DNA of 37,004 bases from an uncultured Clostridia bacterium (GTDB lineage Bacteria; Bacillota; Clostridia; Oscillospirales; Acutalibacteraceae): the NCBI GenBank assembly GCA_905235625.1, contig CAJOLX010000011.1, positions 1-37,004 on the forward strand, given 5' to 3'. Position 1 is the stretch's first letter, and each line of letters starts with the position of its first letter. The position numbers were made by a program, and so were the translations under genes. Below the pieces are notes generated by a model. That model saw nothing but the letters and a program-made list of their open reading frames with translations, had not been told where the DNA came from and made no database searches. Shown one piece after another: positions 327-22,888 of the stretch.

Positions 327-365
327 AAAGCGAACGGAGCACGCTCTGCGTACTCCGTTCGCTTT
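327..365 (-). terminator. Hairpin terminator adjoining the left att site
   Basis: Arms of 13 bp at 327-339 and 353-365 pair perfectly, and an inner ACGC/GCGT pair (341-344 with 348-351) extends the stem. On the minus strand it follows directly on the 3' end of the tRNA repeat and is followed by a short T run. It probably ended the tRNA transcript before the element arrived. Confidence 0.65.
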
Positions 366-419
366 GGTGCGGATAACAGGACTTGAACCTGCACGAACTT
401 GCATTCATTAGAACCTGAA
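365..419 (-). repeat. Left attachment site: 55-bp repeat of the tRNA-Leu(CAG) 3' half
   Basis: The 55 bp are identical to 18925-18979 in the same orientation. The repeat begins in the anticodon loop of tRNA-Leu(CAG) and runs through the encoded CCA, which is a classic attachment core for a tyrosine integrase. Identity ends sharply on both sides (364 versus 18924, 420 versus 18980). This copy is only the 3' half. The complete tRNA gene is rebuilt at the right end. Confidence 0.95.
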
Positions 420-3929: not shown

Positions 3930-3958
3930 ATTATGTCCGATTGTTACAAAAAAAGCAA
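3930..3958 (-). promoter_or_regulatory. Promoter of the MNT/HEPN operon
   Basis: On the minus strand TTGCTT (3953-3958), a 17-nt spacer and CATAAT (3930-3935) lie 34 bp upstream of the MNT ATG. The -35 box overlaps the last codons of the truncated upstream gene, so the junction that broke that gene also brought or created this promoter. Confidence 0.55.
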
Positions 3959-4192
3959 GGCTTGATCATCACTCGCATACGTCCGCTTGTGCATATCATC
4001 CGGCATCTCTTTGGCCTGCGTCAGCGTTCCCCCGTCCATGTTCTCCCAGACTTCATTGTCACCGAAATGGTCGAATAGACCTACACCGATTACTATATTG
4101 CCTTCAAGCGTCAAGCGTTTTTGTGCTTCCATAAAAGCATCTTTAAAGCGTGTACTGCCGCAGAGAGTGATGACTTTAAATTGTTCAACCAT
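3944..4192 (-). pseudogene. Truncated nucleoside 2-deoxyribosyltransferase-like gene
   Basis: This 82-aa product starts like a full member of the small deoxyribosyltransferase-like family: KVITLCGSTRFKDAFMEAQKRL, then EGNIVIGVGLF at about 31-41 and MHKR near 67-70. Intact relatives continue with a hydrophobic strand and a GGYIG-type motif. Here similarity stops after DDMHKR, and 12 unrelated residues lead to a stop codon. The C-terminal half that completes the active site is missing. It begins 29 bp after the trlF stop and may once have been the last gene of the hsd-trlF operon. The lost end coincides with the promoter of the MNT/HEPN pair. Confidence 0.7.
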
Positions 4193-4221
4193 GCCTGTTC
4201 TTCTTTACCTATTGATAAAAT

Positions 4222-7002: not shown

Positions 7003-7114
7003 TGAAATACCTCCTATCACTCCACTCCCAGTGTCTTATATACTGTATATTTTGCTATGCCATAAAAATCAGATTAAAACCTACGAGCTCTAAAAGTATT
7101 GATATATTACACAA
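7003..7114 (-). promoter_or_regulatory. Spacer between hsdR and trlF with a small palindrome
   Basis: The 112-bp gap is large for this operon. It contains the 13-bp palindrome ATATACTGTATAT (7038-7050), which could be an operator or part of an internal promoter for trlF. There is no clear -35 box, so this is tentative. Confidence 0.3.
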
Positions 7115-10100
7115 TTACGCCACGTTGTTATCTGCCCAAAGTTCACACTGAGTCATAACAGTCTGAATTGCATCTTCTCTGTCCTTTGGCGGGTAATCAT
7201 ATTCTTTCAGCAAACGCTTTATCATTTTTCGCATTTTAGCTCTTGCCGATTCTTTTTTAGTCCAGTCGACTGTTCTGTTTTGGCGAAGCTTTTCCGTCAG
7301 TTCTTTTGTCATTGCAATCAGAACATCATTTTCATAGAAATCTTTTATTGCTTGGGGCTTCGTCAAGGCGTCGTAAAAAGCCAGTTCGTCTTCATTCAGC
7401 CCTAAATTTTCGCCTTCATTTTTAGCGGTTTCGATTTGTTTTGCAAGCTTGAGCAATTCAGCAATAACTTCTTCGTTTGTAAGCATTCCGTTCAAATAAC
7501 GATTCATGGACTCCTGCAAGATGTCGCTGAATTTCTCACTTTTTACAACATTGGTGCGTTTGTAGATATGAACCTGTTCTGCAATCAACTTTTTAAGGAG
7601 CTCTATTGCAAGATTTTTCTCTTTCATGTTTGCAATTTCGTTGAGAAACTTTTCATCAAAGAGATTGAATTCATTGCCTACATTTGAAAACAGATTTATG
7701 ACGCCTTCGCTTTTTACACTTTGCTTAAGAAGCTCATTTATGCGGTCATTCACTTCTTTAAGCGAAAGTTTTTTGCCTCCGCCTTGATTCATAAGACGGC
7801 TCAGCATTACTCTTACCGCTTCGAAGAAAGACGCTTCGTAGCGCATTTCTTCGCTGACAAGAGAAGCGCAGAGCGAAAGCGATTGTTTCAACAGAAGCGA
7901 TTCTTTTGCAAAGCTTTCTTTTTGCTTTGATCTTGACGGTTCAACAAGGAAGTTAACTGCTCCGCTGATCGCCTTTGCTCTTTCAAGATCTGTGCCGGTT
8001 GTGAACTTGCCGTAATCGTAGCCGTGCATAAGGTCACGGCATACTTCGAGCTTTTCGATGAATTTCGGATAAGCAATCTTGGCAACATCGGTGTCGCCGT
8101 AGTTCTTCTTATCCCTTACGGTATAATCATTCATCGCCTGCTTCAGAGCAGATGCAATGCCTACATAGTCAACTACGAGGCCGCCTTCTTTGTCACGAAA
8201 CACTCTGTTTACTCTCGCTATTGCCTGCATCAGATTATATCCTGCCATGGGCTTGTACACATACATGGTTGCAAGCGACGGCACATCAAAGCCGGTGAGC
8301 CACATATCAACAACTATCGCTATTTTCAGCGGGCTGTCATTATCTTTGAATTTGGCTGCCAATTCATCTTTATGGCGTTTGTTTCCGATTATATCGTGCC
8401 ACTCTTCCGGATCTTGATTACCGGATGTCATTACAACGGCGACTTTCTCCGTCCAATCGGGGCGCAATTCAAGAATCCGCTTATAAATCTTCATGGCAAT
8501 CGGTCTTGAATATGCAACTATCATCGCCTTGCCGGTAAGCAGATTTTCTCTGTAATTTTCGTAATGATCGAGAATATCAAATACAAGAGAATCAATTGTT
8601 TTATCGTTGCCGAGTATGGCGTCCATTTTCCCAAGCTCTTTTTTGCTTTTTTCGATTACGCCCGGTTCGGTCTGCTCAGCCATAATGTCATATTCATCGT
8701 CAATGAGCCTGAGCGTTGCCTCGTCGAGCTTGAGCTTAATTACACGGCTTTCATAATAAACGGGTCTGGTCGCACCGTCTTCCACAGCCTGGGTCATATC
8801 ATAAATATCAATATATTCTCCGAACACCTCGCGCGTATTGCGATCATTTTGCGAAACGGGCGTGCCGGTAAAGCCGATGTATGTTGCATTAGGAAGGCTG
8901 TTTCGAATAATTCTTGCGGATCCGATAACCCGTTTTGCTACTTCTTCGCCTTCCTCATTTGTCGTTATCTTGATTTTTTCGGTCAAGCCGTATTGACCCC
9001 TGTGCGCTTCATCCGCCATAACAATAATATTGCGGCGCTCGGATAAGCACTCAAAGGATTCTTCAAATTTTTGCATTGTGGTGAAGATAATTCCGTTTGC
9101 CTTCCTTCCCTCAAGCAAAGAGCGCAAATTTTCTCTGCTCTGTGCCTGCACGGGACTTTGACGCAGGAAGTTTTTACATTTCGCAAACTGACCGAACAGT
9201 TGATTGTCAAGGTCGTTTCTGTCGGTTATAACAACAATTGTTGGGCTGTTAAGCGCCTCTTGCAGCAAATGAGCATAAAACACCATAGACAGTGATTTCC
9301 CGCTGCCCTGTGTGTGCCAGAAGACGCCGCCTTTGCCGTCGCCGCCTTCACCTGCCGCTCTTTTTGTTGAAACTATCGCTTTGTTTACTGCAAAATATTG
9401 ATGATAACCGGCTAATATTTTGAATTGCTTTATTCCTTCGTCCGAAAAACAGATAAAATTCTTTATAATATCGAGAAAGCGATTCTTTTCAAATATGCCT
9501 TCAAAGAATGTATCAAACTGCGCATACTGCGTGTTTTCATAGCTGCCATCGGTTGTTTTCCACTCCATGAAGCGGTCTTCACCTGAAGTGATGGTGCCCG
9601 CTTTTGATGTGAACTGATCGCTCATAACACAGATGCAGTTATAAATAAACATGGATGGGATTTCTTTCATGTAATTGCGAAGCTGCAAATATGCGTCGGA
9701 TGCATCCGTTTCTTCTCTTGATGGGGATTTCAGCTCAACAATCACAACAGGCAAACCGTTTAGAAAAATTACAATATCCGGTCGCTTTTCGCTGTTTTCT
9801 TCATACGTCCACTGGTTTGCGACTATAAATGAATTGTTATCAAGGTTTTTGTAGTCTACAAGATAGCAAAGAGCCGAACGTTCTTCGCCATTCTCAAAAT
9901 AACGAACCGGGACACCGTTTTGAATGTAGTCTGTAAACACGGCGTTTTTCTGCACAAGTTCGCCGTTTTCAAAATTTTTGAGTTTATACAGAGCGTCATT
10001 TATGCCGTCTTCGGGCAATGAGGGATTAAGACGGTGTATTGAATCAATCAATATATCATCGTAGACAGGGCTTTTGAAATTTCTTTCAACATCAGGCCCG

Positions 10101-10177
10101 TAAACATATTCATAACCCATGTTGCGAAAAAGCTCTAAAACCGAGTTTTCATAATCGGCTTCGGTAAATCCGGGCAT
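7115..10177 (-). CDS. hsdR: Type I restriction endonuclease subunit R
   Basis: This 1020-aa motor and nuclease subunit translocates DNA with ATP and cuts it at a distance from the unmethylated target. The PD-(D/E)XK nuclease is at the N-terminus: D134 in RPDIVIF, then E148 and K150 in VELKSP. The helicase domain has Walker A HTQGSGKS (288-295), DEAH (389-392), GFTGTP (435-440) and a helicase C-terminal motif QAIARVNR. The ATG at 10177 follows AGGAGA. Every catalytic motif is present and the length is normal. It works with the HsdM and HsdS encoded upstream. Confidence 0.96.
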   Translation of the reverse strand: MPGFTEADYENSVLELFRNMGYEYVYGPDVERNFKSPVYDDILIDSIHRLNPSLPEDGINDALYKLKNFENGELVQKNAVFTDYIQNGVPVRYFENGEERSALCYLVDYKNLDNNSFIVANQWTYEENSEKRPDIVIFLNGLPVVIVELKSPSREETDASDAYLQLRNYMKEIPSMFIYNCICVMSDQFTSKAGTITSGEDRFMEWKTTDGSYENTQYAQFDTFFEGIFEKNRFLDIIKNFICFSDEGIKQFKILAGYHQYFAVNKAIVSTKRAAGEGGDGKGGVFWHTQGSGKSLSMVFYAHLLQEALNSPTIVVITDRNDLDNQLFGQFAKCKNFLRQSPVQAQSRENLRSLLEGRKANGIIFTTMQKFEESFECLSERRNIIVMADEAHRGQYGLTEKIKITTNEEGEEVAKRVIGSARIIRNSLPNATYIGFTGTPVSQNDRNTREVFGEYIDIYDMTQAVEDGATRPVYYESRVIKLKLDEATLRLIDDEYDIMAEQTEPGVIEKSKKELGKMDAILGNDKTIDSLVFDILDHYENYRENLLTGKAMIVAYSRPIAMKIYKRILELRPDWTEKVAVVMTSGNQDPEEWHDIIGNKRHKDELAAKFKDNDSPLKIAIVVDMWLTGFDVPSLATMYVYKPMAGYNLMQAIARVNRVFRDKEGGLVVDYVGIASALKQAMNDYTVRDKKNYGDTDVAKIAYPKFIEKLEVCRDLMHGYDYGKFTTGTDLERAKAISGAVNFLVEPSRSKQKESFAKESLLLKQSLSLCASLVSEEMRYEASFFEAVRVMLSRLMNQGGGKKLSLKEVNDRINELLKQSVKSEGVINLFSNVGNEFNLFDEKFLNEIANMKEKNLAIELLKKLIAEQVHIYKRTNVVKSEKFSDILQESMNRYLNGMLTNEEVIAELLKLAKQIETAKNEGENLGLNEDELAFYDALTKPQAIKDFYENDVLIAMTKELTEKLRQNRTVDWTKKESARAKMRKMIKRLLKEYDYPPKDREDAIQTVMTQCELWADNNVA

Positions 10178-10250
10178 ATTATCTATCTCCTTTTGTGAGA
10201 AGTGATTTTTTGTTCAGCAATATTGAAATTATTGCTTGTGCCTCTTTGGG

Positions 10251-10604
10251 TTATCCTCTAAGTTCCCAAATGCTGTTGGTATCTGACAATTTACAGCCAT
10301 CACATGCAGCGGCTACAATTCCCTGATCTATCAATTCTGATAACAGTTTTATAATGTCTTCTTTCGATTTATTTAGCTTCTTTGCCAATATCTCCGTACT
10401 TGCAACAATATTTTCTTCTAAATAAGATTTTATAGCTTCGAGATCCTGATTGTGTGCTTCTTCTTTTTCCTTTTTCTTTTTTTGTATGACCTGCTTTATG
10501 CATTTAGGGATAATCTTAAAAACCGCTGGAAATATAACAATAAGGATTGCAATAGCAGCAAGCACTCCTTGATTATCATTACACCATTTTAATATTTCTA
10601 ACAT
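10251..10604 (-). CDS. Small membrane-anchored protein with winged-helix-like C-terminus, inside the hsd operon
   Basis: I do not recognise this 117-aa protein. Residues about 13-34 (GVLAAIAILIVIFPAVFKII) form one hydrophobic membrane segment. A very basic, charged stretch follows (QKKKKEKEEAHNQDLEAI). The last 60 residues read like a winged-helix domain (VASTEILAKKLNKSKEDIIKLLSELIDQGIV). It lies 32 bp after hsdS and 73 bp before hsdR on the same strand, so it is very probably co-transcribed. Such an insert is not a standard subunit. It may tie the complex or its regulation to the membrane, which is inference. Confidence 0.7.
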   Translation of the reverse strand: MLEILKWCNDNQGVLAAIAILIVIFPAVFKIIPKCIKQVIQKKKKEKEEAHNQDLEAIKSYLEENIVASTEILAKKLNKSKEDIIKLLSELIDQGIVAAACDGCKLSDTNSIWELRG

Positions 10605-10636
10605 TTATGTCCTCCCATAAACAATAATTTAGCGGC

Positions 10637-11800
10637 TTAGAGTTCTATGTCGGATACATCCAGCTCGCCTGAGATCAATCTTGGTAAAAGAGAATCTCTT
10701 AGCTGAGATAATCTTAGTGATTCGATGCTATTTTGTACTTCTGCATCGTACATTGGCTGTAATACCTTTGATAATTCTCTTGCAGACTCTTCTTCAAAAG
10801 AAACCTCCAGTTTAAGAGTCTCAACCGGACTAAGGTTTTGCTGAGCGGTGCCTTTCGCTATGGTTTCAAGTGAGGTTTTCATCGAAGGCAAGCGGAAGTA
10901 GTAATACAACCACGGTAATAGCTCATTTCTGTTTGGAACAAACTTGGCAACACGTTGATTCAAAAGGAGGTTGTTTTCATAAACAATGCCGACCCTTCCA
11001 ACGTTACCAGTTAGAGATAGCAGAGAATCGCCTATCGATAAGAAACAACCTGCTTTCATATTTTGTGGCACATCATCAATGAAAGCTGCACCTTGAGAAT
11101 CAATCTTTCCATCTTGAACATTTTTGATGGTGATGATTCGATATTTCCCGATAGGCAAATAGCTTTTACTTTGAAAGGCATACCCGTTTTCAAAACGCAT
11201 TATTTGTCCTAATTCGGTGGTAAATGACATAGAGGCACAATAGTTAGTCATTAAAGCCGTTGCTTGCTGCTCTAAATTATTGTTTATCTGATTGTTTAAG
11301 GCAATCTTATCGTCAAGGGCTTTTAGCAGGCTACCAATTTTCCGTTGTTCCTCAAGCGAGGGGACAGATATCATCAAGTTCTCAACTACAGAGGTTTGAA
11401 CACGCTGCCTACCTGATGAACCTACCATTGATTTGATTGCCGGCTCCCGAACAATTGGACTACAAATCAAATAATATAGGAAATCGGGATCGACATTTTC
11501 CTTCGCTCTAAAAACAATGTACTCTGTAGAGCCGAATCCAATCTCATTTTCGTCAAGTATGCTAACCTTTGCTACCTTTCCATTCTCTAAACAAGGGGTA
11601 ATTCGAGCCATGATCGTATCGCCATTTCGAAACTTCGTGCCGCCCGAAAAGGCTTTCCACTCATAAGAGGGAATTTCTCTACAAAACGGTTGCAATTTAT
11701 CCATTGCAACTTTTTTAGCCAATGTACCCTTTGATAATTTTTCTGTGGGATTAAAATAGGCTATATCCGAGAGCTTTACATTGTATCGTTCAGATTTCAT
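10637..11800 (-). CDS. hsdS: Type I restriction-modification specificity subunit
   Basis: This subunit sets the DNA target of the HsdM and HsdR complexes. I chose ATG 11800 (387 aa) over the longer frame to 11857, because it overlaps the end of hsdM by 11 bases and has GGGGG upstream. Two target-recognition domains are visible, at about 1-145 and 190-345. Each is followed by a conserved helical spacer: SLEEQRKIGSLLKALDDKI at 148-166, and ELSKVLQPMYDAEVQNSIESL near the C-terminus. The two half-repeats are complete, so it should read a bipartite site. I cannot predict the sequence it recognises. Confidence 0.93.
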   Translation of the reverse strand: MKSERYNVKLSDIAYFNPTEKLSKGTLAKKVAMDKLQPFCREIPSYEWKAFSGGTKFRNGDTIMARITPCLENGKVAKVSILDENEIGFGSTEYIVFRAKENVDPDFLYYLICSPIVREPAIKSMVGSSGRQRVQTSVVENLMISVPSLEEQRKIGSLLKALDDKIALNNQINNNLEQQATALMTNYCASMSFTTELGQIMRFENGYAFQSKSYLPIGKYRIITIKNVQDGKIDSQGAAFIDDVPQNMKAGCFLSIGDSLLSLTGNVGRVGIVYENNLLLNQRVAKFVPNRNELLPWLYYYFRLPSMKTSLETIAKGTAQQNLSPVETLKLEVSFEEESARELSKVLQPMYDAEVQNSIESLRLSQLRDSLLPRLISGELDVSDIEL

Positions 11801-13298
11801 ACCCAATCGCCCCCAGCTTCTTGCGGATTTCTTCTTCCAGTTCGTGGGATTTGGCAAACATATCGGAAAGCTCGGATGTAAGACGGGTCATTTTCTGCTC
11901 AAAGGGTTCGCCGTCATCTTCCTGCTCTTCAATACCTACATATCTGCCGGGCGTGAGAATATAATCCTGCTTTTCAATGTCCTGAAGCGTGGCAACCGCA
12001 CAGAATCCCTTTACATCTTCCAGCGTTCCGTTCTGGAAAGCTTCAAATGTATCTGCTATTTTGGAAATGTCAGCATCCGTGAAGTCTCTGTGTTTACGGT
12101 CTACCATATAGCCCATCTTGCGAGCGTCAATAAAAACAGTTTTGCCTTTCTGCTTTTTATTTCGGCTGATAAACCACAGTGTAACGGGAATTGTTACAGA
12201 GTAGAAGAGCTGGGTTGGCAAGGCAACAATGCCCTCAATAAGATCAGCATTGATTATATTCTTTCTGATTTCTCCCTCGCCGCTTGACTGAGTGGAGAGC
12301 GCTCCGTTTGCGAGCACCAAACCGATTTTTCCATTTGGCGCAAGGTGATGAATCATGTGCTGAATCCATGCATAGTTGGCATTGCCGGCAGGAGGCAAGC
12401 CGTATTTCCAGCGGACATCGTCAACCAGATCTTCCTGATGCCAGGGGTGATAGTTAAACGGAGGATTGGCGAGAATGAAATCGGCTTTCATCTGCGGATG
12501 CAGATCATTTGTAAAAGTATCCGCCTGATAAGGCCCGAAATCAGCTTCAATGCCGCGAATCGCCATATTGATTTTTGCCATTTTCCAAGTGTCTGCGTTT
12601 GCTTCCTGACCGTAAACGGAGATATTCCCTCTGTTGCCGGAATGCGCTTCAATAAACTTTGCGCTCTGCACAAACATGCCGCCCGAACCGCAGCAAGGGT
12701 CATAAACACGGCAGTTATCAAACGGTTTTAATATTTCAACAAGTGTTTTAACCACGCTTGACGGCGTGTAAAACTCACCGCCTCCGACTCCTTCTTTTTC
12801 GGCAAATTGAGCTATACAGTATTCATAGGTGCGCCCCAAAAGGTCTTCGCTTGCCTCAGAATCGCTCATGTCAATGTTATTGGTGAAAATATCGACAACA
12901 TCACCGAGAACTCGCTTATCAAGATCCGGATTTGCATAATTTTTGGGCAAAACATTTTTCAACGATTTGTTTTCATCTTCAATTGCTCTCATTGCGTTAT
13001 CAATCACCGAGCCGATCTCAGGAGTGTGCGCCGCCGAAGCTATGACCGACCAGCGCGCCTCTTCAGGCACGAAAAATATGTTTTCGGAGGTATACTCATC
13101 GCGGTCATTTTCGAAGCCGTCGCCCTCTTCAACAAGTTCATTGTATTTCTTATCAAAAGCTGATGAAATATAACGCAGGAAAATGAGTCCAACAATAACT
13201 TTTCTGTATTCAGCTGCAGGGATGTGACCCCATAAAACGCAGGCGGCATCCCATATCTGTTTTTCAAATCCAAGATTAGCATTCGTTTTTTCAGCCAT
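11790..13298 (-). CDS. hsdM: Type I restriction-modification DNA methyltransferase subunit (N6-adenine)
   Basis: This methyltransferase transfers a methyl group from S-adenosylmethionine to adenine in the target set by HsdS. The N-terminal helical domain (about 1-140) is followed by the SAM-binding motif YDPCCGSGGMF (199-209) and the catalytic motif NPPF (278-281), the gamma-class arrangement. I prefer ATG 13298 (502 aa) to the frame start at 13328, because GGGG lies 8 nt upstream of it. It is the first gene of the hsd operon, and a TATAAT-like -10 box lies at 13351-13356 (minus strand) with only a weak -35. The stop overlaps hsdS. Confidence 0.96.
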   Translation of the reverse strand: MAEKTNANLGFEKQIWDAACVLWGHIPAAEYRKVIVGLIFLRYISSAFDKKYNELVEEGDGFENDRDEYTSENIFFVPEEARWSVIASAAHTPEIGSVIDNAMRAIEDENKSLKNVLPKNYANPDLDKRVLGDVVDIFTNNIDMSDSEASEDLLGRTYEYCIAQFAEKEGVGGGEFYTPSSVVKTLVEILKPFDNCRVYDPCCGSGGMFVQSAKFIEAHSGNRGNISVYGQEANADTWKMAKINMAIRGIEADFGPYQADTFTNDLHPQMKADFILANPPFNYHPWHQEDLVDDVRWKYGLPPAGNANYAWIQHMIHHLAPNGKIGLVLANGALSTQSSGEGEIRKNIINADLIEGIVALPTQLFYSVTIPVTLWFISRNKKQKGKTVFIDARKMGYMVDRKHRDFTDADISKIADTFEAFQNGTLEDVKGFCAVATLQDIEKQDYILTPGRYVGIEEQEDDGEPFEQKMTRLTSELSDMFAKSHELEEEIRKKLGAIGYEI

Positions 13299-13350
13299 AT
13301 TCATTACCCCATTTATTTCATAAGTCAAGAAAAATCTTTTAAATAAAGTT

Positions 13351-13379
13351 ATTATATCAATATTTGCCCTGAATTTCTA
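13351..13379 (-). promoter_or_regulatory. Probable hsd operon promoter
   Basis: On the minus strand TATAAT (13351-13356) lies about 53 bp upstream of the hsdM start in A+T-rich DNA. The base block 17 nt upstream (TAGAAA, 13374-13379) is a poor -35, so the promoter may be weak or activator-dependent. Confidence 0.4.
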
Positions 13380-13420
13380 CTGTTTTGCCAAATATTTTGC
13401 CGAAAAATATAGCTACGGAA

Positions 13421-14785
13421 TCAGTATTTCAGCCGCTCGACGGGGATGCAATAAAGGCTTTTTGTTTCGGCGGATTCTTTGACGCACCAATCGCTGAAAC
13501 GGTGAAAACCGAACAGGAGCAGGCGGGTATCAAATGGCGGAGCATAGCGGCGCATAACTCTGTAATACCGTTCAACGTCCTCCTTGGTGAAACGCTGCTC
13601 AGCGTTGCGCGGGAAAACGGCAAAATAGGTAACGCCCCGATATTTGCAGATAAAATCAATCTTCACCTTGCAGCCGTCCTTGAATGTGAACGAAACAGGC
13701 TGAAACGCCTGCGGGAAGCGGGTTGCTGCCCAACGAATGTCGGCAGATTCTTCCATGCGATTCTGATAGGAAAACTGCTGCAGATAGCGTTTGCAGGCGC
13801 CATGCACGCAGGGCAGCATCAACGTTTTGTCAATGGTTTGCAAAACTGTTTGCATCACATCCTCCGGATTTGCAATCAGCCGCTCGCGGTTCGGATAAAT
13901 GTAAAGCATCCAGAATTTGAAATAGCTGTTTGTCAGGTGATAGGCGGCGCTGCGCTCGTTTTCCGCTTTGCGCACCTCCACGATGTGACGCTCAATCAGC
14001 GCTTTTAGGTAAGTGTCGGTTTTGTTATTCGGATAGCCGGCGGCTTTCGCAATCTCCGAGATTCTGTGTTTCCCTTGCGCAAGCGCCGAAAGAATCGGAT
14101 AGTAGGATTCCGGCGCACGGATCGACCGATGCAAAAGCGAAGGAAAGAAGGTAACAAGTGAAGAATCAAAATGCAGCATTCGCCGCAAATTTTCTTCCAA
14201 TGAAAGCGCGGCGTCGACTTCTTTGCATGCCGCAGGCAGTCCGCCGGTGATCGCCCACAAACGCGCAGCATCGGCGGCTTCGGCATCCGGCAGCGCTTTT
14301 GCAAAATGCCAAATCGCGCGCGGCAGAATTTCTACGGATTCTTTCCGAAAACTCTTTTCCGCATTTTCTTCCTCTATGTAGATGACAACGAATCTTGCAT
14401 TCTGTAATTTTTTCAATCCGCAGGAAAAGGCTTCGTCTGCGCAGAAATCAAAATCATCCACAAACAGAACAGGTACTCTTGCAAATTTTTCGGCAAGCAG
14501 CCTGTCGAAAACCTCGTCCCATTGATCCGGCGCTTCCTCCTGCGGCAGAAACAAATGCAGAAACGTTTCTTTTGCGTCGGGCGCCGTCAGATGCCGGCAG
14601 GAGAAATACCGCGCTGCCGACAAATGGTTTTGCGCATAGCTTGCGGCAAGCTCTGTTTTGCCCGCACCCGGCAGTCCGGACAGCGTGCAGCGTTTCCGTT
14701 CCTTCCCGTGATAAACACGATCCAGCGCATCGGCAATGAGGGCATTCAGCTTATCTTTTTCAGTATGACTGTCAAACGAAAGCAT
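13421..14785 (-). CDS. AAA ATPase with winged helix and DUF234-like C-terminus
   Basis: This protein of about 454 aa belongs to the archaeal-type AAA ATPases (ATPase_2 plus DUF234). Walker A GLPGAGKTE and Walker B VLFVDDFDF lie about 70 residues apart in the first quarter. A winged-helix segment follows in the middle (KHRISEIAKAAGYPNNKTDTYLKALIERHIVE), then the FKFWMLYIYPNRE stretch typical of DUF234. I favour the ATG at 14785, which lies 8 nt after GGAT; the ATG at 14791 has no room for a ribosome binding site. The gene is alone on its transcript, upstream of the hsd operon. Its function is unknown. Its general plan resembles the 602-aa ATPase at the other side of the island, but the two are only distantly alike. 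Confidence 0.72.
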   Translation of the reverse strand: MLSFDSHTEKDKLNALIADALDRVYHGKERKRCTLSGLPGAGKTELAASYAQNHLSAARYFSCRHLTAPDAKETFLHLFLPQEEAPDQWDEVFDRLLAEKFARVPVLFVDDFDFCADEAFSCGLKKLQNARFVVIYIEEENAEKSFRKESVEILPRAIWHFAKALPDAEAADAARLWAITGGLPAACKEVDAALSLEENLRRMLHFDSSLVTFFPSLLHRSIRAPESYYPILSALAQGKHRISEIAKAAGYPNNKTDTYLKALIERHIVEVRKAENERSAAYHLTNSYFKFWMLYIYPNRERLIANPEDVMQTVLQTIDKTLMLPCVHGACKRYLQQFSYQNRMEESADIRWAATRFPQAFQPVSFTFKDGCKVKIDFICKYRGVTYFAVFPRNAEQRFTKEDVERYYRVMRRYAPPFDTRLLLFGFHRFSDWCVKESAETKSLYCIPVERLKY

Positions 14786-14791
14786 AAACAT

Positions 14792-15125: not shown

Positions 15126-15269
15126 AAAACTCGCCTGCGGCTCAGAAGGGCTCTGCCCTTCGATGCTGCGCATCTACCTTTTTGAGAATGGCTTTGCAAA
15201 TCCGAAAATCAAAATTTCGGAAAAATCGGTTTTGCCCTTCACAAATACAAAAGGGAAGGAGCGGATTTT
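15126..15269. other. Leader of the mobilization genes with short hairpins
   Basis: Short self-complementary blocks are packed here (for example GAAGGGC/GCCCTTC near 15146-15161 and GATGCTGCGCATC near 15161-15173). No gene is supported. The stretch ends in the ribosome binding site of the ORF at 15270. Confidence 0.35.
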
Positions 15270-15377
15270 ATAGAATCCTGTTTCACATCGGAAGAACTGA
15301 AAACTGCACTTATTGAAAACGGCTTTATGGATCTGACCGATGCGGAAACCAAATCCATCATAAAATGTCTGAAATAG
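15270..15377 (+). CDS. Small ORF of the mobilization operon with ATA in the start position
   Basis: A 35-aa frame reads IESCFTSEELKTALIENGFM and then DLTDAETKSIIKCLK to a TAG stop. GGAG at 15258-15261 lies exactly 8 nt before an ATA codon, with no ATG, GTG or TTG nearby. The only in-frame ATG is residue 20. The leader GGAGCGGAT is the same as in front of the excisionase-like gene at 17254, which also has ATA. I do not recognise the product. Its stop overlaps the ATG of the next frame (15365). It is either silenced by a G-to-A start mutation or read poorly from AUA. Confidence 0.5.
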   Translation: MESCFTSEELKTALIENGFMDLTDAETKSIIKCLK

Positions 15378-15647
15378 AACGCAAAGGAAGAAGCGCATTT
15401 GCACCGTGCCGTGCGCGCAGCCAACCGCGCAAAAACGACTGCTCGGAAAAAACGCGACGCCCGCACTCATCAGCTCTGCAACATCGGCGGCGCAGTTTTG
15501 AAATTCTATCCCGATCTGCAATTTCTCTATCCCAATGAATTGGAAGCATTGTTTGAATCGGTTTTTTCGTTCGATCCTGCAATTGATAACCTTGTGCAAA
15601 ATGCAATTGCAAATCGAAAAAACAATGTTGACGGGAGGAATGCGTAA
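15365..15647 (+). pseudogene. DUF3847/TraD-like small mobilization protein, frame-broken near the N-terminus
   Basis: The frame that ends at 15647 encodes KEEAHLHRAVRAANRAKTTA, then RKKRDARTHQLCNIGG and about 50 more residues. The ARTHxLCxxGG motif is typical of the small DUF3847/TraD-like proteins encoded next to MobA relaxases. The natural ATG (15365, MSEIERK) is in another frame, and a single-base change near 15383-15386 (AAAGG) would join the two. As it stands, translation from the ATG leaves the frame after about 7 codons. A TTG at 15399 could start a shortened product of 82 aa without a good ribosome site. The stop codon overlaps the presumed relaxase start. Confidence 0.6.
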
Positions 15648-17209
15648 CGGCCTGCTTCCATTTTCACGTTACGCAGGTCAAGCGTTCCGCCGGACAATCC
15701 GTCACACAAATGGCGGCGTACCGCGCGTGTGACAAGCTGCATTCTGCATATTATCACGAAACCTACAACTATTCTTCAAAGCCCGGTTTGATACATTCTG
15801 AAATTTTGCTGCCGCCGCACGCGCCGGCAAGATTTGCGGATCGGGAAACACTTTGGGACGAGGTAGAAGCTGCGGAAAAGCGTCCGGATGCGCAGCTGGC
15901 ATTCAACTTTGATTTCAGCTTGCAGTCGGAATTCACAAACGCAGAGAATATTGAACTTGTGCGAAACTTCCTTTTGAATCATTTTGTTTCGCGCGGCATG
16001 ATCTGCGATTGGGCGTTTCATTATCCCACAGAAAACGACGAGAACCCGAATCCACACGTGCATTTGCTCTGCCCGATGCGGCCGCTCAATCCGGACGGAT
16101 CATGGGGCAACAAGCAAAAAGCGGTTCCCGTGTTTGACGAAAGCGGAAATCCTGTGATCGGAAAAAACGGGCGGCAAAAAACAAACGCCGTGAAAACGAC
16201 AGACTGGTCCGACCCGGAAACTCTGACCGAGTGGCGGGAAGCATGGGCGCAGCTCAACAATGAGCTTTTTGAAAAGAAAGGACTGCCGGTGCGGGTCTCC
16301 GCCGACACGCTGGAGGCGCATGGCATCGACCGCCTGCCGACGATTCACGAAGGGCCGAACGTCCGCGCGATGGAAGCGCAGGGGCTGAACACCGAACGCG
16401 GCGAATACAACCGCTGGGTGCGCAAGATCAATCAATCGTTCGTTTTGATAAAATCGCATCTGGAACGTCTGGTGCAATGGGCGCGCAATCTGCGTGAACA
16501 TCCGCCGAAAGAAGAGAATCTGATCGACCTGCTGGACGATTACATGACCGGGCGCAATTTCGGCGCATATTCGCAAAAGGCGAAAGCGGATAATCTGAAA
16601 CAATTCAACGCTGCCGTGAACTATTTGCAAAAGCACGCTCTGAAAACGCCGGCAGATCTGGAATATCACACGCAATCCGTGCAGGGTGAATTTGACGCTG
16701 CAAGGGCGCAGAAGTCAAAAATCAAAAATCAAGCGGATGCACTGAATGCCGATCTGAAAGCGATTCACCGCTGGGAGGCCGTGAAGCCAATCGGGAAAGA
16801 ATATGAAAAGAAAAAGTTTGGCAGAGATAAATATTACAGCGCGCACGAAAAAGAAATCAAGGCCTACTACTATCTCAAGAAAAACAAGCCGGCGCTGATT
16901 TCGGAAAATGCGGAAGCAAAAATCAAAGCCGAACTGCAAACGCTGAATGCAGACCGGAAATCGCTGAACGAATCGCTTGATCTTATTGAGAAAAAGCTCA
17001 AATTTCTTCACGCCGTTCAGCACAGCATCGACGTTGCCCTCGGCAAAGCCGACAACACCGAGCCTGTTGAAATCGGCGGTAAAACCGTGTTTGTTGAAAG
17101 CAATGGATCAGTTCTCTCAAAACTTGAACGGGCGAATCGGCAAATCACGGAACAATCCAAAACGGAATCACCTGTCGAGAAAAATTTGCGGCAGGAGACG
17201 AAAGATTAA
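15647..17209 (+). CDS. mobA: MobA/MobL family relaxase with ACG in the start position
   Basis: Relaxases of this family nick oriT and lead the strand into the recipient. The frame is intact for 520 codons if it begins at ACG 15647. The first residues (ACFHFHVTQVKRSAGQS) are the diagnostic start of MobA/MobL proteins, and AAYRACDKLHSAYY follows. The HxH motif NPHVHLL has histidines near 137 and 139. A long coiled, lysine-rich C-terminal region follows. GGAGG ends exactly 8 nt before the ACG, and TAACG replaces the TAATG stop/start overlap expected here. A downstream ATG (15710) would delete 21 residues of the catalytic N-terminus. Confidence 0.85.
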   Translation, partial: TACFHFHVTQVKRSAGQSVTQMAAYRACDKLHSAYYHETYNYSSKPGLIHSEILLPPHAPARFADRETLWDEVEAAEKRPDAQLAFNFDFSLQSEFTNAENIELVRNFLLNHFVSRGMICDWAFHYPTENDENPNPHVHLLCPMRPLNPDGSWGNKQKAVPVFDESGNPVIGKNGRQKTNAVKTTDWSDPETLTEWREAWAQLNNELFEKKGLPVRVSADTLEAHGIDRLPTIHEGPNVRAMEAQGLNTERGEYNRWVRKINQSFVLIKSHLERLVQWARNLREHPPKEENLIDLLDDYMTGRNFGAYSQKAKADNLKQFNAAVNYLQKHALKTPADLEYHTQSVQGEFDAARAQKSKIKNQADALNADLKAIHRWEAVKPIGKEYEKKKFGRDKYYSAHEKEIKAYYYLKKNKPALISENAEAKIKAELQTLNADRKSLNESLDLIEKKLKFLHAVQHSIDVALGKADNTEPVEIGGKTVFVESNGSVLSKLERANRQITEQSKTESPVEKNLRQETKD

Positions 17210-17253
17210 AACAAAATTTTTATTGCCGCAAGCGGCAGAAAGGAGCGGATAGT

Positions 17254-17433
17254 ATACTGGAATCTTACAATGAATTACTCAGCGTTGCAGAAATGAAAGA
17301 AGCGCTCGGAATCGGGCGCAACGCGGCGTATCAGCTGATCAGCGACGGAAAAATGAAGCACATCATAATCGGAAACAAAATTTACATTCCGAAATGGTGC
17401 ATTCTTGAGTTTTTGAAGGATGTGGTCCGTTGA
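17254..17433 (+). CDS. Excisionase-like helix-turn-helix protein with ATA in the start position
   Basis: A 59-codon frame reads (I)LESYNELLSVAEMKEALGIG and continues RNAAYQLISDGKMKHIIIGN, then KIYIPKWCILEFLKDVVR. This is the MerR/HTH_17-type winged fold of excisionases, which bend attachment-site DNA so that the integrase can excise the element. GGAG (17242-17245) lies exactly 8 nt before ATA 17254. A CTG follows as the next codon and the first in-frame ATG is codon 14, which would remove the first helix. It sits between mobA and int, and its TGA stop lies inside the -35 box of the int promoter. It is likely poorly translated or silent. Confidence 0.7.
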   Translation: MLESYNELLSVAEMKEALGIGRNAAYQLISDGKMKHIIIGNKIYIPKWCILEFLKDVVR

Positions 17434-17501: not shown

Positions 17502-18713
17502 ATGACCGCAAAGGAGCCGCGCGGCACATTGTCCGAATTCAGAGGAAAATATCGTTTGATCGTTTCCTACTATGATTTTGACGGTAACCGCCGGCAGAAA
17601 ACCAAAACTACGGATTTGCCGATCCGAGGCAACAAAAAGAAAGCGGAAGAGCTGCTCGATGAATTTGTTCAAGCCGTGGAAAAGGAACTGAAAGAAGAGT
17701 TTTATAAACGTTCCGTCGGCACGGATGAACGGGAATTCACCGCCTATCTCAAACATTGGCTTTCAGTCAAAAGAGATATCGGCACTTTAGCGGAAAACAC
17801 CTATCACAACTATCATGCGACGATTTACGGAAAGATCTGCCCGTATTTTGATGAACGCTATCCGCATCTGGCACTGCGCGAAGTGACTGCGCCGATGCTG
17901 GAGGAATATTATCATTACCGCATGAAGCATGACGGTGTGAGCGCAAACACGATCAAGCACGAGCATTCCTATATTTCCGGCGCTATGCGCAAAGCATATC
18001 GGCAGGATCTGATTGAACGGCCGATCGTGGATAAGGTGGAATTACCCAAGCGGGAACGATTTCGCGGCTCTTTCTACAGCAGAGCGGAAATGCAGAAATT
18101 CCTCGCCGCAGTGGAAGGAGACGAACTGGAGCTTCCGATCAAGCTCGCCGCATACCTCGGCCTGAGAAAAAGCGAGGCGCTCGGTCTGAAATGGAGCGCT
18201 GTTGATTTTCAGGCAAACACCATCACAATCGAGCGCGCCGTTGTTGCCTATTACGATTCCGAGCTGAAAGCCGAAGTGGAACTGGTAAAGGAAAAGACAA
18301 AAACCGAATCCAGCACCCGCACATTGACCATGCCGACGCCGCTTGTGCAGCTGCTCAAGCATGCGCGCGCAACTCAGCTTCAAAACATGATGCATCACAG
18401 GGCAGAATACAACACGGGGCAAAGCGATTTTGTTTGTGTTGACGCCTATGGCAACCGCATTCGTTCCGACCGCTGCTCACGCAGCATGAAAGTGTTTGCG
18501 GAAAAAGCCGGTGTCAAAAAGATTCGCTTTCACGATCTGCGTCATTCCTGCGCAACGCTTCTGCTGAGCAGCGGCGTGCCGCTGAAAGAGATCCAGGCCT
18601 GGCTCGGGCATGCGGATTTTCAAACGACGGCAGATATTTATGCGCATGTTTGCGAAGACTCTATGGATCGGCAAGCAAGGGTACTTTCGGAAATTTTTTC
18701 GTTCACCGCATGA
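17502..18713 (+). CDS. int: Tyrosine site-specific integrase
   Basis: This 403-aa phage-type integrase catalyses recombination between attP and the tRNA-Leu target. The start at ATG 17502 follows AGGAGG at 7 nt; the longer frame from 17430 begins inside the promoter and is not credible. An arm-binding-like N-terminal domain (RGTLSEFRGKYRLIVSYYDF) is followed by a SAM-like core domain (about 75-175) and the catalytic domain with R222 (GLRKSEAL), H344 and R347 (HDLRHS), H370 (LGH) and nucleophile Y380 (DIYAHV). All five residues are present. It lies next to the right attachment site, as is usual. Confidence 0.96.
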   Translation: MTAKEPRGTLSEFRGKYRLIVSYYDFDGNRRQKTKTTDLPIRGNKKKAEELLDEFVQAVEKELKEEFYKRSVGTDEREFTAYLKHWLSVKRDIGTLAENTYHNYHATIYGKICPYFDERYPHLALREVTAPMLEEYYHYRMKHDGVSANTIKHEHSYISGAMRKAYRQDLIERPIVDKVELPKRERFRGSFYSRAEMQKFLAAVEGDELELPIKLAAYLGLRKSEALGLKWSAVDFQANTITIERAVVAYYDSELKAEVELVKEKTKTESSTRTLTMPTPLVQLLKHARATQLQNMMHHRAEYNTGQSDFVCVDAYGNRIRSDRCSRSMKVFAEKAGVKKIRFHDLRHSCATLLLSSGVPLKEIQAWLGHADFQTTADIYAHVCEDSMDRQARVLSEIFSFTA

Positions 18714-18914: not shown

Positions 18915-18924
18915 CTTTTGCCTG

Positions 18925-18979
18925 TGGTGCGGATAACAGGACTTGAACCTGCACGAACTTGCATTCATTAGAACCTGAA
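18925..18979 (-). repeat. Right attachment site: 55-bp repeat inside tRNA-Leu(CAG)
   Basis: This is identical to 365-419. It is the 3' part of the complete tRNA-Leu(CAG) gene, from the anticodon loop to CCA, so integration preserved a functional tRNA. Confidence 0.95.
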
Positions 18980-19011
18980 TCTAACGCGTCTGCCAATTCC
19001 GCCATATCCGC
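18925..19011 (-). tRNA. tRNA-Leu (anticodon CAG)
   Basis: The 87-nt minus-strand gene folds as a class II tRNA. It has acceptor GCGGATA/TATCCGC, a D arm, anticodon stem TTAGA/TCTAA with loop TTCAGGT (anticodon CAG), a long variable arm, a T arm with GGTTCAAGTCC, and an encoded CCA. It reads the leucine codon CUG. It is the integration target: its 3' half now belongs to the element's right repeat. No promoter is seen between it and the tRNA upstream, and a terminator-like hairpin lies in that gap, so it may depend on readthrough. Confidence 0.95.
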
Positions 19012-19366: not shown

Positions 19367-21199
19367 ATGGATCCAATCAAGGTTGATTTTTCAAAGAAAG
19401 AAAGCGGCAGGCAGAGCGAAATAGTTATACCGCCCGAAAAGGCAGGGCTCAAAATCGCAATCTGCCTTATTCTGACCGTTATTACGGGCGCCGTTGCTTA
19501 TTACGTGATGCTGCCCGCGATTAACTTTAAGTCATACGACCTTTACCTTTTCATCGGAATCACGGCTCTGTCGTATATCGTATGGAATGCTCTGATAACG
19601 AAAGCGATCGCAAAGCCCGAATACATGCCCTACGTTAAGAAGAGAGCCATCGTGCCGGGAATAATCATCGGCGTGCTCGTTCTCGCTCTCGTTGTGGGCT
19701 ACGTCGTTTCTTCTCAGTTTTTCAGGGCGAAGAGCTACAGCAGAATCATCGACGTTGAAACCGACACAAGCTTTTCCGATGACCTTAACGAAGAGGATGC
19801 GGAATCCTTCTCTTCAATCCCCCGTCTTGACGCGGAGTCGGCTTATCAGGTCGCTTCAAGAGCTATCGGCTCGCTCGGCGAAATGGGCTACGTTTCTCAG
19901 TTCACCGTCGCCGCCGAAAACACTCAGATAAACTACCGCGAAACTCCCGTTAGAGTCGCTCCCCTTCAGTACGCAAGCATAATCAAGTGGCTTTACAACA
20001 CGAGAGAGGGCTTCCCCGGCTACGTTATAATCGACATGGCCAACGAAAACGCGGAATTTGTTGAGCTTGAGGGCGGCAATATCAGATATTCGCCCTATGA
20101 GCATTTTAACAAGCTGCTCCAGCGCAAGCTCCGTTTTGAATATCCCACCTATCTTTTCGCGGAAGCCACTTTTGAAATTGACGACGAAGGCAATCCTTAC
20201 TGGATTTGCGCCCGCCTTGACAAGACCATAGGCCTCTTCGGCGGCACGGACGTTATCGGCGCTGTGGTCGTTAAAGCGAATTCCGCCGACTTTGAAAGCA
20301 GCTATTACACCATTGAGCAGATAAACAACGACGCAGAGCTTCAGTGGATAGACAGAATTTATTCAGCCGACCTGCTCGTTGAGCAATACAATTACTACGG
20401 CAAGTATTCCGGCGGATTCTGGAATTCAATTCTCGGCCAGAAGAACGTTGTAAGAACCACCTCCGGCTACAATTACATCGCGAAAGACGACGACGTGTGG
20501 ATGTACACCGGCATCACCTCCGTTACCTCCGACCAGTCAATCACCGGCTTTGCGCTTGTAAATCAGAGAACCAAGGAAGCTAAATTCTACTCCGTAACGG
20601 GCGGCACGGAAAATTCCGCTCAGCTTGCCGCGGAAGGCAGAGTTAAAGACCTCGGCTACACCGCCACCTTCCCCCTGCTGCTCAACATCGGCGGAGAGCC
20701 CACTTATTTCCTCTCGCTTAAAGACGTTTCGAGCGGCAGCAACATCGTGCAGCAATACGCTCTCATAAACGTTAAGCAATACAATAACAACAAGATGGGC
20801 GCTAACGGCAACGACCTTGCGAAGTGCCTTGCCGCTTACATAGAAGCCCTCAGCTCCTCCGGCATAAAGGTTGATATAGACCCCGAAGAGGTTGCAAGGC
20901 AGATAAGCGAAAATGAAAACGGAAACGGCGAAAATTCCGGTGAAACCGAAAATCAGCCTGCCGTTCAGCCCGAGCCCGTAAGCTCCGACACCGTTACGGG
21001 CAAAATCGCCGATATACGCTCAGCGGTTATCGGCGGAGAAAGCGTTTACTACGTGAAGCTTGACTCCGGCAGCGCTTATTACAGCATAAAAGCTTCCGAT
21101 AATCAGGCGGTAGTAATTCTCAACGTCGGCGACACGGTAACGATTAAATTTGAGGGCAGCGGAAGCATACTCACCGCAAAGTCGATAACCAAAAATTAA
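19367..21199 (+). CDS. Uncharacterised membrane protein with three TM segments and a large exported domain
   Basis: I do not recognise a named family for this 610-aa protein. ATG 19367 lies 8 nt after GGAG; the GTG 3 nt earlier is too close. Three hydrophobic segments (about residues 27-48, 58-77 and 94-114) are followed by a hydrophilic domain of roughly 390 residues, an acidic linker rich in N, E, G, P and Q (about 525-553), and a final small beta-rich module of about 65 residues (VTGKIADIRS to KSITKN) that resembles an OB-like fold. With an odd number of membrane passes the large domain probably faces outward. It has its own promoter. An 11-bp hairpin lies between it and hflX. Confidence 0.7.
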   Translation: MDPIKVDFSKKESGRQSEIVIPPEKAGLKIAICLILTVITGAVAYYVMLPAINFKSYDLYLFIGITALSYIVWNALITKAIAKPEYMPYVKKRAIVPGIIIGVLVLALVVGYVVSSQFFRAKSYSRIIDVETDTSFSDDLNEEDAESFSSIPRLDAESAYQVASRAIGSLGEMGYVSQFTVAAENTQINYRETPVRVAPLQYASIIKWLYNTREGFPGYVIIDMANENAEFVELEGGNIRYSPYEHFNKLLQRKLRFEYPTYLFAEATFEIDDEGNPYWICARLDKTIGLFGGTDVIGAVVVKANSADFESSYYTIEQINNDAELQWIDRIYSADLLVEQYNYYGKYSGGFWNSILGQKNVVRTTSGYNYIAKDDDVWMYTGITSVTSDQSITGFALVNQRTKEAKFYSVTGGTENSAQLAAEGRVKDLGYTATFPLLLNIGGEPTYFLSLKDVSSGSNIVQQYALINVKQYNNNKMGANGNDLAKCLAAYIEALSSSGIKVDIDPEEVARQISENENGNGENSGETENQPAVQPEPVSSDTVTGKIADIRSAVIGGESVYYVKLDSGSAYYSIKASDNQAVVILNVGDTVTIKFEGSGSILTAKSITKN

Positions 21200-21217
21200 A
21201 ATCAACAAAAGCTTTAA

Positions 21218-21251
21218 GTCGGATGCCGCAGCTATCAGCCCGGCATCCGAC
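21218..21251 (+). promoter_or_regulatory. Stable hairpin in front of hflX
   Basis: Perfect 11-bp arms GTCGGATGCCG (21218-21228) and its complement (21241-21251) enclose a 12-nt loop. No T run follows, so it is not a standard terminator. It ends 13 nt before the hflX ATG and could cover or shape the initiation region, or mark a processing site. Confidence 0.5.
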
Positions 21252-21264
21252 GCGGATTATTAAG

Positions 21265-22518
21265 ATGGAATTATACGAAAACAAAACCGAGCCCGAAAAA
21301 GCGGTGCTTGTTGCCGTTGACACGGGCGAATATGACTGCGACTCATCCCTTGCGGAGCTTGAGGAGCTTGCCGATACCGCCGGAGCTCAGGTCGTGGGCT
21401 TTATCACTCAAAAGCGCGACAAGCCCGATAACGCCTCTTTTCTCGGCAGCGGCAGGCTTGAGGAGCTCGCCGAATATTGCGAAAACAACGAGATAGACCT
21501 TGTTATAGTTGATAACGAGCTCTCCCCCGTTCAGCTCAGAAACATGGAAAGAGCGGTCGACACGAGAGTGATCGACAGAACGACGCTTATTCTTGACATT
21601 TTCGCGGGCAGAGCTGTCAGCAACGAGGGCAAGCTGCAGGTTGAGCTCGCTCAGCTCAAATATTCTTTGCCGAGGCTCACCGGTCAGGGCTCCCGCCTTT
21701 CGAGGCAGGGCGCGGGAATAGGCACGAGAGGCCCCGGCGAAACGAAGCTTGAAACGGACAAAAGGCACATTCGCCGCCGCATATCTTCGCTCGAAAGCAA
21801 GCTCGACGAGCTTGAAAAGCGTCGCAATCTCACGAGGGCGAGGCGTGAAAAAACGGGCGTTGAAACCGTGGCGATAGTCGGCTACACAAACGCCGGCAAA
21901 TCCACCCTGCTCAACACTTTGACGGATGCGGGCGTGCTCGCGCAGGATAAGCTCTTCGCGACTCTCGACCCAACGGCGCGTTCGCTCACCCTGCCCGACG
22001 GCAGAAACGTTGTGCTCATAGACACGGTAGGATTTATCCGCCGCCTGCCTCACGAGCTCGTGGAAGCGTTTAAATCAACCCTTGAAGAAGCGGCGAGCGC
22101 CTCGGTGATAATAAACGTTTGCGACTGCTCAAACCCCGAGTGCCGCGAGCATATTGAAGTGACTCAAAAGTTGCTTACGGAGCTCGGCTGCGAAGATATA
22201 CCCGTGGTAACGGCTCTTAACAAATGCGACCTGCCGGGCGTTTGCGAGGATATTCCCCCGGTTTCGGGCGAAACGGTGAGGATATCCGCCAAAACCGGCG
22301 AAGGGCTCGACGAGCTGCTTCTCGCCGTTCAAAAGGCTTTGCCGCCCACGAGAATGCGAGTTAAAATGCTCATTCCTTATTCCGACGGAGCGGCTGCCGC
22401 GGCTCTCAGGCGTGACGGCGCGGTGCACGAGGAGAGCTTCACTCCCGAGGGAGTCCGGTTTGATGTAACTGCGCCCGCAGCGCTTCTCGATAAATACAAA
22501 GATTATATAACCGCATAA
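21265..22518 (+). CDS. hflX: GTPase HflX, ribosome-splitting/rescue factor
   Basis: HflX binds stalled 70S or 50S ribosomes and helps split them under stress. The 417-aa protein has the N-terminal HflX domain (to about 190) with the GTRGPGETKLETD signature (153-165), a coiled linker, and the G domain with GYTNAGKST (206-214), DTVGF (G3) and NKCD (G4). I chose ATG 21265 because the longer frame from 21223 runs through the hairpin and is not conserved in style. There is no clear Shine-Dalgarno sequence, which is unusual next to the strong sites elsewhere in the window. Confidence 0.95.
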   Translation: MELYENKTEPEKAVLVAVDTGEYDCDSSLAELEELADTAGAQVVGFITQKRDKPDNASFLGSGRLEELAEYCENNEIDLVIVDNELSPVQLRNMERAVDTRVIDRTTLILDIFAGRAVSNEGKLQVELAQLKYSLPRLTGQGSRLSRQGAGIGTRGPGETKLETDKRHIRRRISSLESKLDELEKRRNLTRARREKTGVETVAIVGYTNAGKSTLLNTLTDAGVLAQDKLFATLDPTARSLTLPDGRNVVLIDTVGFIRRLPHELVEAFKSTLEEAASASVIINVCDCSNPECREHIEVTQKLLTELGCEDIPVVTALNKCDLPGVCEDIPPVSGETVRISAKTGEGLDELLLAVQKALPPTRMRVKMLIPYSDGAAAAALRRDGAVHEESFTPEGVRFDVTAPAALLDKYKDYITA

Positions 22519-22536
22519 AAGTTTACATTTAACGGC

Positions 22537-22565
22537 TTGACAAAGCCGCGCCGAAAATATATAAT
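22537..22565 (+). promoter_or_regulatory. Consensus promoter TTGACA-N17-TATAAT before a small orphan gene
   Basis: TTGACA (22537-22542) and TATAAT (22560-22565) are both perfect and exactly 17 nt apart, 51 bp upstream of the ATG at 22616. A gene of 69 codons with a promoter this strong is probably highly expressed. Confidence 0.88.
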
Positions 22566-22615
22566 CAACACATAGTAAAGTCGATTGACTGAATTTTTAT
22601 TAAGGAGGCTTTTTC

Positions 22616-22825
22616 ATGGGTGACTTTTTCCAGGATCTCGGTTATGAGATCAACGCTGCCGCTCTTGAGAATTTCATCGTTTATTTCTTTGAGTGGATTA
22701 CCAAGTTCGACGTAAGAACGATCAACGTTGATTATCTTTCTCAGCTTCTTACAACCTTCAGCCCCATATGGAATCCGATCTGGGCAGCGATAAATCAGTT
22801 CCTTGGCGAACATTTCGGCTTCTGA
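22616..22825 (+). CDS. 69-aa orphan protein under a consensus promoter
   Basis: I do not recognise this protein. It has an acidic start (MGDFFQDLGYEINAAALENF) and then amphipathic, aromatic-rich helices with three tryptophans (FIVYFFEWITKF, FSPIWNPIWAAINQFLG). No cleavable signal is clear. It may lie against the membrane. AAGGAGG sits about 7 nt before the ATG, the promoter is perfect consensus, and a terminator follows at 22840-22868. The gene is therefore a complete, strong transcription unit of its own between hflX and murD. Confidence 0.75.
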   Translation: MGDFFQDLGYEINAAALENFIVYFFEWITKFDVRTINVDYLSQLLTTFSPIWNPIWAAINQFLGEHFGF

Positions 22826-22839
22826 TAACAGCCGATCAT

Positions 22840-22868
22840 GCCGGTTGGCTTTGCCTGCCGGCTTTTTT
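22840..22868 (+). terminator. Terminator after the 69-aa gene
   Basis: GCCGG...GGC pairs with GCC...CCGGC across two mismatches, and a T6 run follows (22863-22868). The ribosome binding site of murD begins only 8 bp later, so murD is served by readthrough or by a start I cannot see. Confidence 0.75.
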
Positions 22869-22888
22869 CTTGTAAAGAGGTGATTTTT

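Follow-up and report, generated by a model that had tools for sequence, protein, structure and literature searches.

The 37,004-nt stretch of DNA analysed here, henceforth referred to as the window, comes from an uncultured Clostridia bacterium and contains an element bounded by two 58-nt repeats. The right end of the element carries, in order on the forward strand, a DUF3847-like gene, a MobA/MobL (MOBQ) relaxase, a small HTH_17 (helix-turn-helix, HTH) protein and a tyrosine integrase, and the remainder is mainly defence-like cargo on the opposite strand (Table 1). A preliminary description of this DNA reported ATA, ACG and ATA in place of ATG in the first three of these genes. Direct reading confirmed that each codon stands exactly 8 nt after a GGAG or GGAGG ribosome site, that each is a single transition from ATG, and that the upstream TAA overlaps the relaxase ACG to give TAACG. 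The unusual relaxase start belongs to a recurrent pattern in Clostridia and is probably not a product of decay.

Table 1 Positions of the element ends, start sites and right-end genes in the window.
Feature	Position	Strand	Details
Left attachment repeat	362..419		58 nt, 98% identity to 18922-18979
GGAG ribosome site, DUF3847 gene	15258..15261	+	8 nt before ATA (15270-15272)
DUF3847-like gene, ATA at start place	15270..15647	+	in-frame TAG 15375-15377; stop TAA 15645-15647 overlaps relaxase start
GGAGG ribosome site, relaxase	15634..15638	+	8 nt before ACG (15647-15649)
Perfect 9-nt inverted repeat	15641..15675 (arms 15641-15649, 15667-15675)	+	left arm holds ACG codon
MobA/MobL (MOBQ) relaxase, ACG start, intact frame	15647..17209	+	PF03389
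GGAG ribosome site, HTH gene	17242..17245	+	8 nt before ATA (17254-17256)
Small HTH_17 protein, ATA start	17254..17433	+	excisionase-like by position only
Tyrosine integrase, normal ATG start	17502..18713	+	ATG 17502 after AAAGGAGG
Right attachment repeat	18922..18979		overlaps 3' part of tRNA-Leu(cag) 18925-19011

No in-frame ATG, GTG or TTG (hereafter NTG) was present between the upstream stop and the unusual codon in the DUF3847, relaxase or HTH frames. The relaxase frame is closed by a stop six codons before the ACG, remains open for 519 codons after it, and matches PF03389 with an E value of 1.5e-72 (244 bits against a curated cut-off of 26.7). Its first downstream in-frame NTG is an ATG at 15710 (codon 22), which lies past the invariant residues H4 and R12 and the nearly invariant S17, counted from the residue after the ACG; the relaxase N-terminus is thus encoded upstream of the nearest ATG, as had been claimed. 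The corresponding first downstream NTG codons are ATG at 15327 (codon 20), without a good ribosome site, in the DUF3847 gene and ATG at 17293 (codon 14) in the HTH gene. The relaxase frame was further described as otherwise undamaged; this holds for the relaxase but cannot be extended to the whole module, since the DUF3847 frame is broken by a TAG overlooked in that description (codon 36, counting the ATA). The piece after the TAG matches PF12958 with an E value of 1.7e-7 and 31.6 bits, below the cut-off of 40. Soon past the TAG, a TTG lies about 9 nt after AAAGGA; speculatively, the core domain might restart there, with the first part serving as a leader. The RNA folding z scores of the three starts (-1.68, 0.00 and -0.10) speak against a general start hairpin. 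The sole conspicuous feature is the inverted repeat of the relaxase start, the next longest comparable repeat among 69 cluster representatives being 6 nt.

The position of the relaxase start is fixed by the protein itself. H4, A23, Y24, H136 and H138, residues with a catalytic role in relaxases that include the AY and HxH motifs, were invariant in 33 relaxase rows, and the profile of these 33 sequences matches the solved chains 4HT4 (a nicking enzyme) and 2NS6 (a mobilization protein), which we take to be staphylococcal NES and RSF1010 MobA, respectively, from residue 1. Profile position 1 is the residue immediately after the window ACG, so that the window relaxase and these MOBQ relaxases share the same domain and the same first residue. 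Since both solved chains begin at the next residue, the codon before profile position 1 is the expected initiator. With the frame closed six codons upstream and the next NTG past conserved residues, the initiator should be the ACG, unless the gene is dead.

Start codons of related relaxases were read in two samples, consisting mostly of best-scoring rather than randomly chosen loci. The first was assembled by searching whole genomes of the family, order and phylum, with one collection scan and fetched stretches in addition, and comprised 135 non-identical start regions read by one script. After review, it contained 58 ATG, 9 TTG and 3 GTG starts, 57 near-cognate starts (35 ATA, 12 ATC, 7 CTG, 2 ACG and 1 ATT), and 8 rows without an assigned start; one row (L041) was re-read as ATG and another (L002) as ATA via the codon adjoining the aligned one. 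The second, class-wide sample (n = 57, 19 rows being re-read by hand as ATG or GTG one or two codons upstream) gave 45 NTG and 11 near-cognate starts (9 ATA, 2 ATC), the latter in four further families (f168, f173, f183, f198), and one unassigned row; NTG is the rule in some families, such as f27. Across both samples, 68 of 192 MobA/MobL relaxases have a codon one base from ATG at the start place, 115 have ATG, GTG or TTG there, and 9 are unassigned, the eight "other" rows of the first sample and one AAG row of the class-wide sample having been set aside. Among the remaining one-mismatch codons, AAG occurred only in that row, which lacks a Shine-Dalgarno (SD) site, and AGG did not occur in either sample.

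The non-NTG starts are strongly concentrated in the one-mismatch class. In the first sample, 57 of 65 fall in it, against a chance of 6 of 58 (p 1.5e-47), and 24 of 29 do so after clustering at 85% (p 1.6e-19), although related rows are not independent and these p values are indicative only. SD spacing was 7-10 nt from the aligned codon, as measured by the script, in all 24 near-cognate representatives. Closed frames of at least 350 codons were found in 52 of 56 near-cognate and 59 of 68 NTG relaxases. Two of ten named plasmid records that were read carry near-cognate relaxases, those of Subdoligranulum variabile (OY725846.1, ATA) and Monoglobus pectinilyticus (NZ_OY725736.1, ATC); ATG or TTG is found in the remaining eight. 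A Campylobacter coli plasmid (NZ_CP017026.1) was also seen to hold a Clostridia-like DUF3847-MobQ-TnpW module, with an ATG relaxase and a predicted aminoglycoside phosphotransferase gene nearby. In four relaxases (L027, L028, L029, L050), CCC occupies the start position and is directly preceded by ATA or ATC, with an SD spacing that fits neither codon well.

The preliminary description had offered, as one explanation, that the mobility genes selectively lost their starts, leaving the element frozen in the host as a defence island. The TAG in the window DUF3847 gene, the poor quality of ACG and ATA as starts, and the defence-like genes of the element, a type I restriction system among them, would all fit such decay. 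The relatives do not bear it out. In a tree of 75 relaxases, the window groups with L002 (ATA) and with L031 and L032 (CTG) at a Shimodaira-Hasegawa-like approximate likelihood ratio support of 100, and this four-row clade contains no NTG at the relaxase start, L002 being judged by the ATA next to its aligned codon. The nearest relatives show CTG (L031-L035) or ATA (L002) there and none shows ATG. The alignment with close relatives that the preliminary description proposed accordingly favoured weak non-AUG initiation of the relaxase, though without conservation of any single codon. Mapped on the tree, the near-cognate label requires 13 changes, seven of them forced by starred branches, compared with a mean of 21.7 for shuffled labels; it is therefore conserved within clades and has been switched repeatedly.

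Conservation was also assessed within seven of the ten multi-member clusters that have near-cognate members, leaving out L012 (2 ATA), L157 (2 ATC) and L148. The start is invariant in six of them (10, 4 and 3 ATA; 4 CTG; 2 and 2 ATC) and nearly so in the seventh (L016; 11 ATA and 1 ATC). At fourfold sites, by contrast, members of the same clusters differ by 11-64%. Most pairwise codon differences within codons 2-30 are synonymous, with 298 silent and 68 non-silent in the L037 cluster and 376 and 116, respectively, in the L016 cluster. Such conservation together with intact frames is not what one would expect of a dead start. Across relatives, it is the class of codon that is kept rather than one particular codon. 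The relaxase, HTH and integrase frames of the window are open, and the two attachment repeats, 98% identical, are both in place. Decay into a locked element is consequently an improbable account of the element, and the recurrence of the codons across the family is best read as the use of weak starts, a pattern more general than had been assumed.

A second explanation is that the relaxases are started elsewhere, from an upstream in-frame NTG such as the GTG in GGAGGTG, or through a frameshift or fusion from the DUF3847 gene, which overlaps the relaxase in the window. An in-frame NTG does occur within 40 codons upstream in 41 of the 57 near-cognate relaxases of the first sample, often as a GTG inside the SD sequence GGAGGTG. 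No such codon is present in the other 16 (11 of 24 after clustering), which include the window, where the frame is closed six codons before the ACG. The GTG overlaps the SD site itself, and one relaxase of the DFCHIP type (L130) lacks the GTG yet keeps the ATA of its relatives. In three of the seven clusters (L016, L164, L009), variation in the 7 nt preceding the start equals or exceeds that at fourfold sites; it is lower in the other four, and L037 shows none. Together with the solved chains, whose first residue is the one following the near-cognate codon, these observations make a start elsewhere quite unlikely.

Several observations weigh against conserved near-cognate initiation of the relaxase, beginning with the 41 upstream NTG codons just described. 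The L148 cluster, whose members share at least 85% identity, mixes ATT, CTG and ATG, which suggests that switching to and from ATG is easy. In L002, the nearest relative, the aligned place is occupied by AAC, so that the ATA one codon before had to be counted as its start, and in-frame ATG codons also lie 14-15 codons upstream. ACG, the codon of the window, is rare (2 of 68 near-cognate relaxases), and the nine unassigned rows hold CCC (4), GTC (2), ACT, TGG and AAG (1 each). Outside the class sample, six phylum-level rows were readable (L106, L107, L109, L112, L115, L117), and all have ATG or GTG. The near-cognate label is clustered on the tree, and row counts overstate independence. Finally, the mean SD match after clustering is hardly longer for near-cognate than for NTG starts (7.5 against 7.0), and with so small a difference SD length was rejected as an explanation.

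The near-cognate starts are largely specific to the relaxase. When one rule was applied to all genes, relaxases scored 53 near-cognate, 67 NTG and 15 none (one was scored AGG), compared with 10, 97 and 11 for DUF3847 (Fisher p 3e-9), 3, 34 and 1 for the integrase (n = 38; p 3e-5), and 3, 23 and 1 for the HTH gene (n = 27; p 0.002). The window's own integrase and HTH gene are included in these counts, and its DUF3847 gene is not among the 118 scored; DUF3847 rows were excluded if their match began beyond profile position 8, as were rows close to the edge of a locus. In 100 paired operons, a near-cognate relaxase accompanied an NTG DUF3847 gene 39 times and the reverse was seen three times (p 6e-9). 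Each of the four integrases not scored NTG, including the three called near-cognate, has an in-frame NTG, and four of the ten near-cognate DUF3847 genes have none.

For the two neighbours of the relaxase, the comparison with relatives gave a divided answer. The uniform rule scored the window HTH gene as CTG, since its ATA and CTG share one SD site; one same-genus relative (L022/L192) likewise has ATA and lacks any in-frame upstream NTG, in line with a non-AUG start. The DUF3847 starts of near relatives are mixed, with TTG in L002, ATT in L032-L035 and ATG in L031, and for that reason the window DUF3847 ATA appears the least secure of the three starts. Elsewhere, one DUF3847 gene (L174) has an isolated ATA where L164, L172 and L175 have ATG.

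Two other controls were set aside. MOBP relaxases (PF03432, n = 30) gave 10 NTG, 5 near-cognate and 15 none under the uniform rule (Fisher p 0.58 against MOBQ), a result that was discarded because the MOBP N-terminus lies far upstream of the profile. Read by eye, ATG or GTG stands at the conserved start or ahead of it in 27 of the 30. Of the other three, L308 is unclear, L297 combines CTG with an ATG two codons earlier, and L315 has an Ile codon before the conserved N-terminus. A control based on SD-like sites in 20 stretches of 20 kb from the same genome plus the window, in which 48 of 115 strong sites with an open reading frame lacked NTG, was rejected since SD-like words inside genes dominate it, and homology-anchored controls were used in its place.

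Conserved weak near-cognate initiation of the relaxase, of the kind seen in infC and ccpN, is the best reading of these data and likely the correct one, because the codon stands at a place fixed by the protein, is conserved, precedes a constrained N-terminus, and contrasts with the mostly ordinary starts of the neighbouring genes. The relaxase would be translated from the ACG, a near-cognate codon with one mismatch to the initiator tRNA, which an SD site at the right distance would make usable. Weak initiation would yield little relaxase and keep mobilization and nicking of the integrated element rare. Selection would hold the near-cognate class while the codon drifts among ATA, ATC, CTG, ACG and ATT. 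The HTH gene probably shares this brake, and the DUF3847 gene possibly does. We infer the reduced yield, its benefit and an involvement of initiation factor 3 (IF3).

In E. coli, infC, which is autoregulated, and pcnB start with AUU. As proposed for the relaxase, the rare start holds expression down and IF3 discriminates against it, but these are housekeeping genes. Hosts of the present elements probably use the near-cognate effect on IF3 itself: in all 30 genomes counted by hand, a GGAGGTG-like site lies at SD distance upstream of ATT (14) or ATC (16) in infC, with ATC in the window's own genome, and in 13 of these 30 genes an in-frame NTG also follows 3-8 codons downstream. IF3-dependent control of the relaxase is, by analogy, possible. 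Since host infC uses the same codon class in all 30 genomes, relaxase output might further track the balance of IF3 to ribosomes, so that elements would sense the translational state and mobilize when initiation fidelity drops, a tentative proposal that we regard as rather doubtful. The infC starts could also be taken to suggest a dedicated initiator tRNA or an altered code that makes ATA and similar codons ordinary starts, an explanation that is highly implausible since ACG, ATA and CTG occur in one clade, which no single tRNA could fit, and since NTG starts are used by the integrases and by most DUF3847 genes of these genomes.

The closest precedents are the Staphylococcus aureus genes infC (AUA), ccpN (AUA), cvfC1 (AUU) and citZ (AUA), which resemble the relaxase in their one-mismatch start, well-placed SD and intact protein; for ccpN and cvfC1 the non-canonical start is likewise conserved across relatives (PMC13009471). 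According to the same study, AUA and AUU starts with an extended SD give ~10% of the AUG yield in poor medium, the ccpN start gives up to 30% in rich medium, and inefficient P-site decoding modulated by IF3 is suggested (PMC13009471). The S. aureus cases presented there are single chromosomal genes, whereas the present case is a mobility gene family with repeated switches, interchangeable codons and up to three genes per element. A reason for a brake is suggested by integrated Tn916, for which expression of the DNA-processing genes, including the relaxase, is reported to lower host fitness (PMC11658703). Terminator T1 of Tn916, as described there, resembles the proposed brake in keeping the DNA-processing genes silent while the element is integrated, but it acts on transcription and the proposed brake on translation (PMC11658703).

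The cargo of the element (1101-14791) comprises a type I restriction-modification system (hsdR, hsdS, hsdM), a large SMC/Ppl-like protein, a small gene pair with one member weakly matching the candidate system PDC-S09, and ATPases that match candidate systems weakly. Two 38-nt hairpin-like repeats, 87% alike, lie near cargo gene ends (1058-1095 and 3082-3119). An extra copy of the 25-nt tRNA-Leu end at 140-164, 225 nt before the left repeat, is perhaps the scar of an earlier insertion. A second integrase, with 40% identity, and a MOBP relaxase frame of just 162 codons occur on another contig of the same genome (C28 of G000, 19587-22939), perhaps marking another, partial element.

The preliminary description knew of no account of such a set of starts. 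Weak near-cognate starts with extended SD sequences are known for other genes in S. aureus (PMC13009471). A literature search, with most subscription papers and all bioRxiv preprints outside its scope and hence weak as evidence of novelty, returned no paper on non-AUG relaxase starts. The PLSDB gene table for NZ_OY725736.1, which omits pseudogenes, lists no gene over the ATC-start relaxase. Common gene callers generally accept only ATG, GTG and TTG, and near-cognate relaxases would be shortened by them, given a false GTG inside the SD site, or missed. If the proposed initiation is true, horizontal transfer has a translational brake that gene callers tend to miss, and the relaxase starts would yield a simple and testable proposal for how nicking is kept rare in an integrated element.

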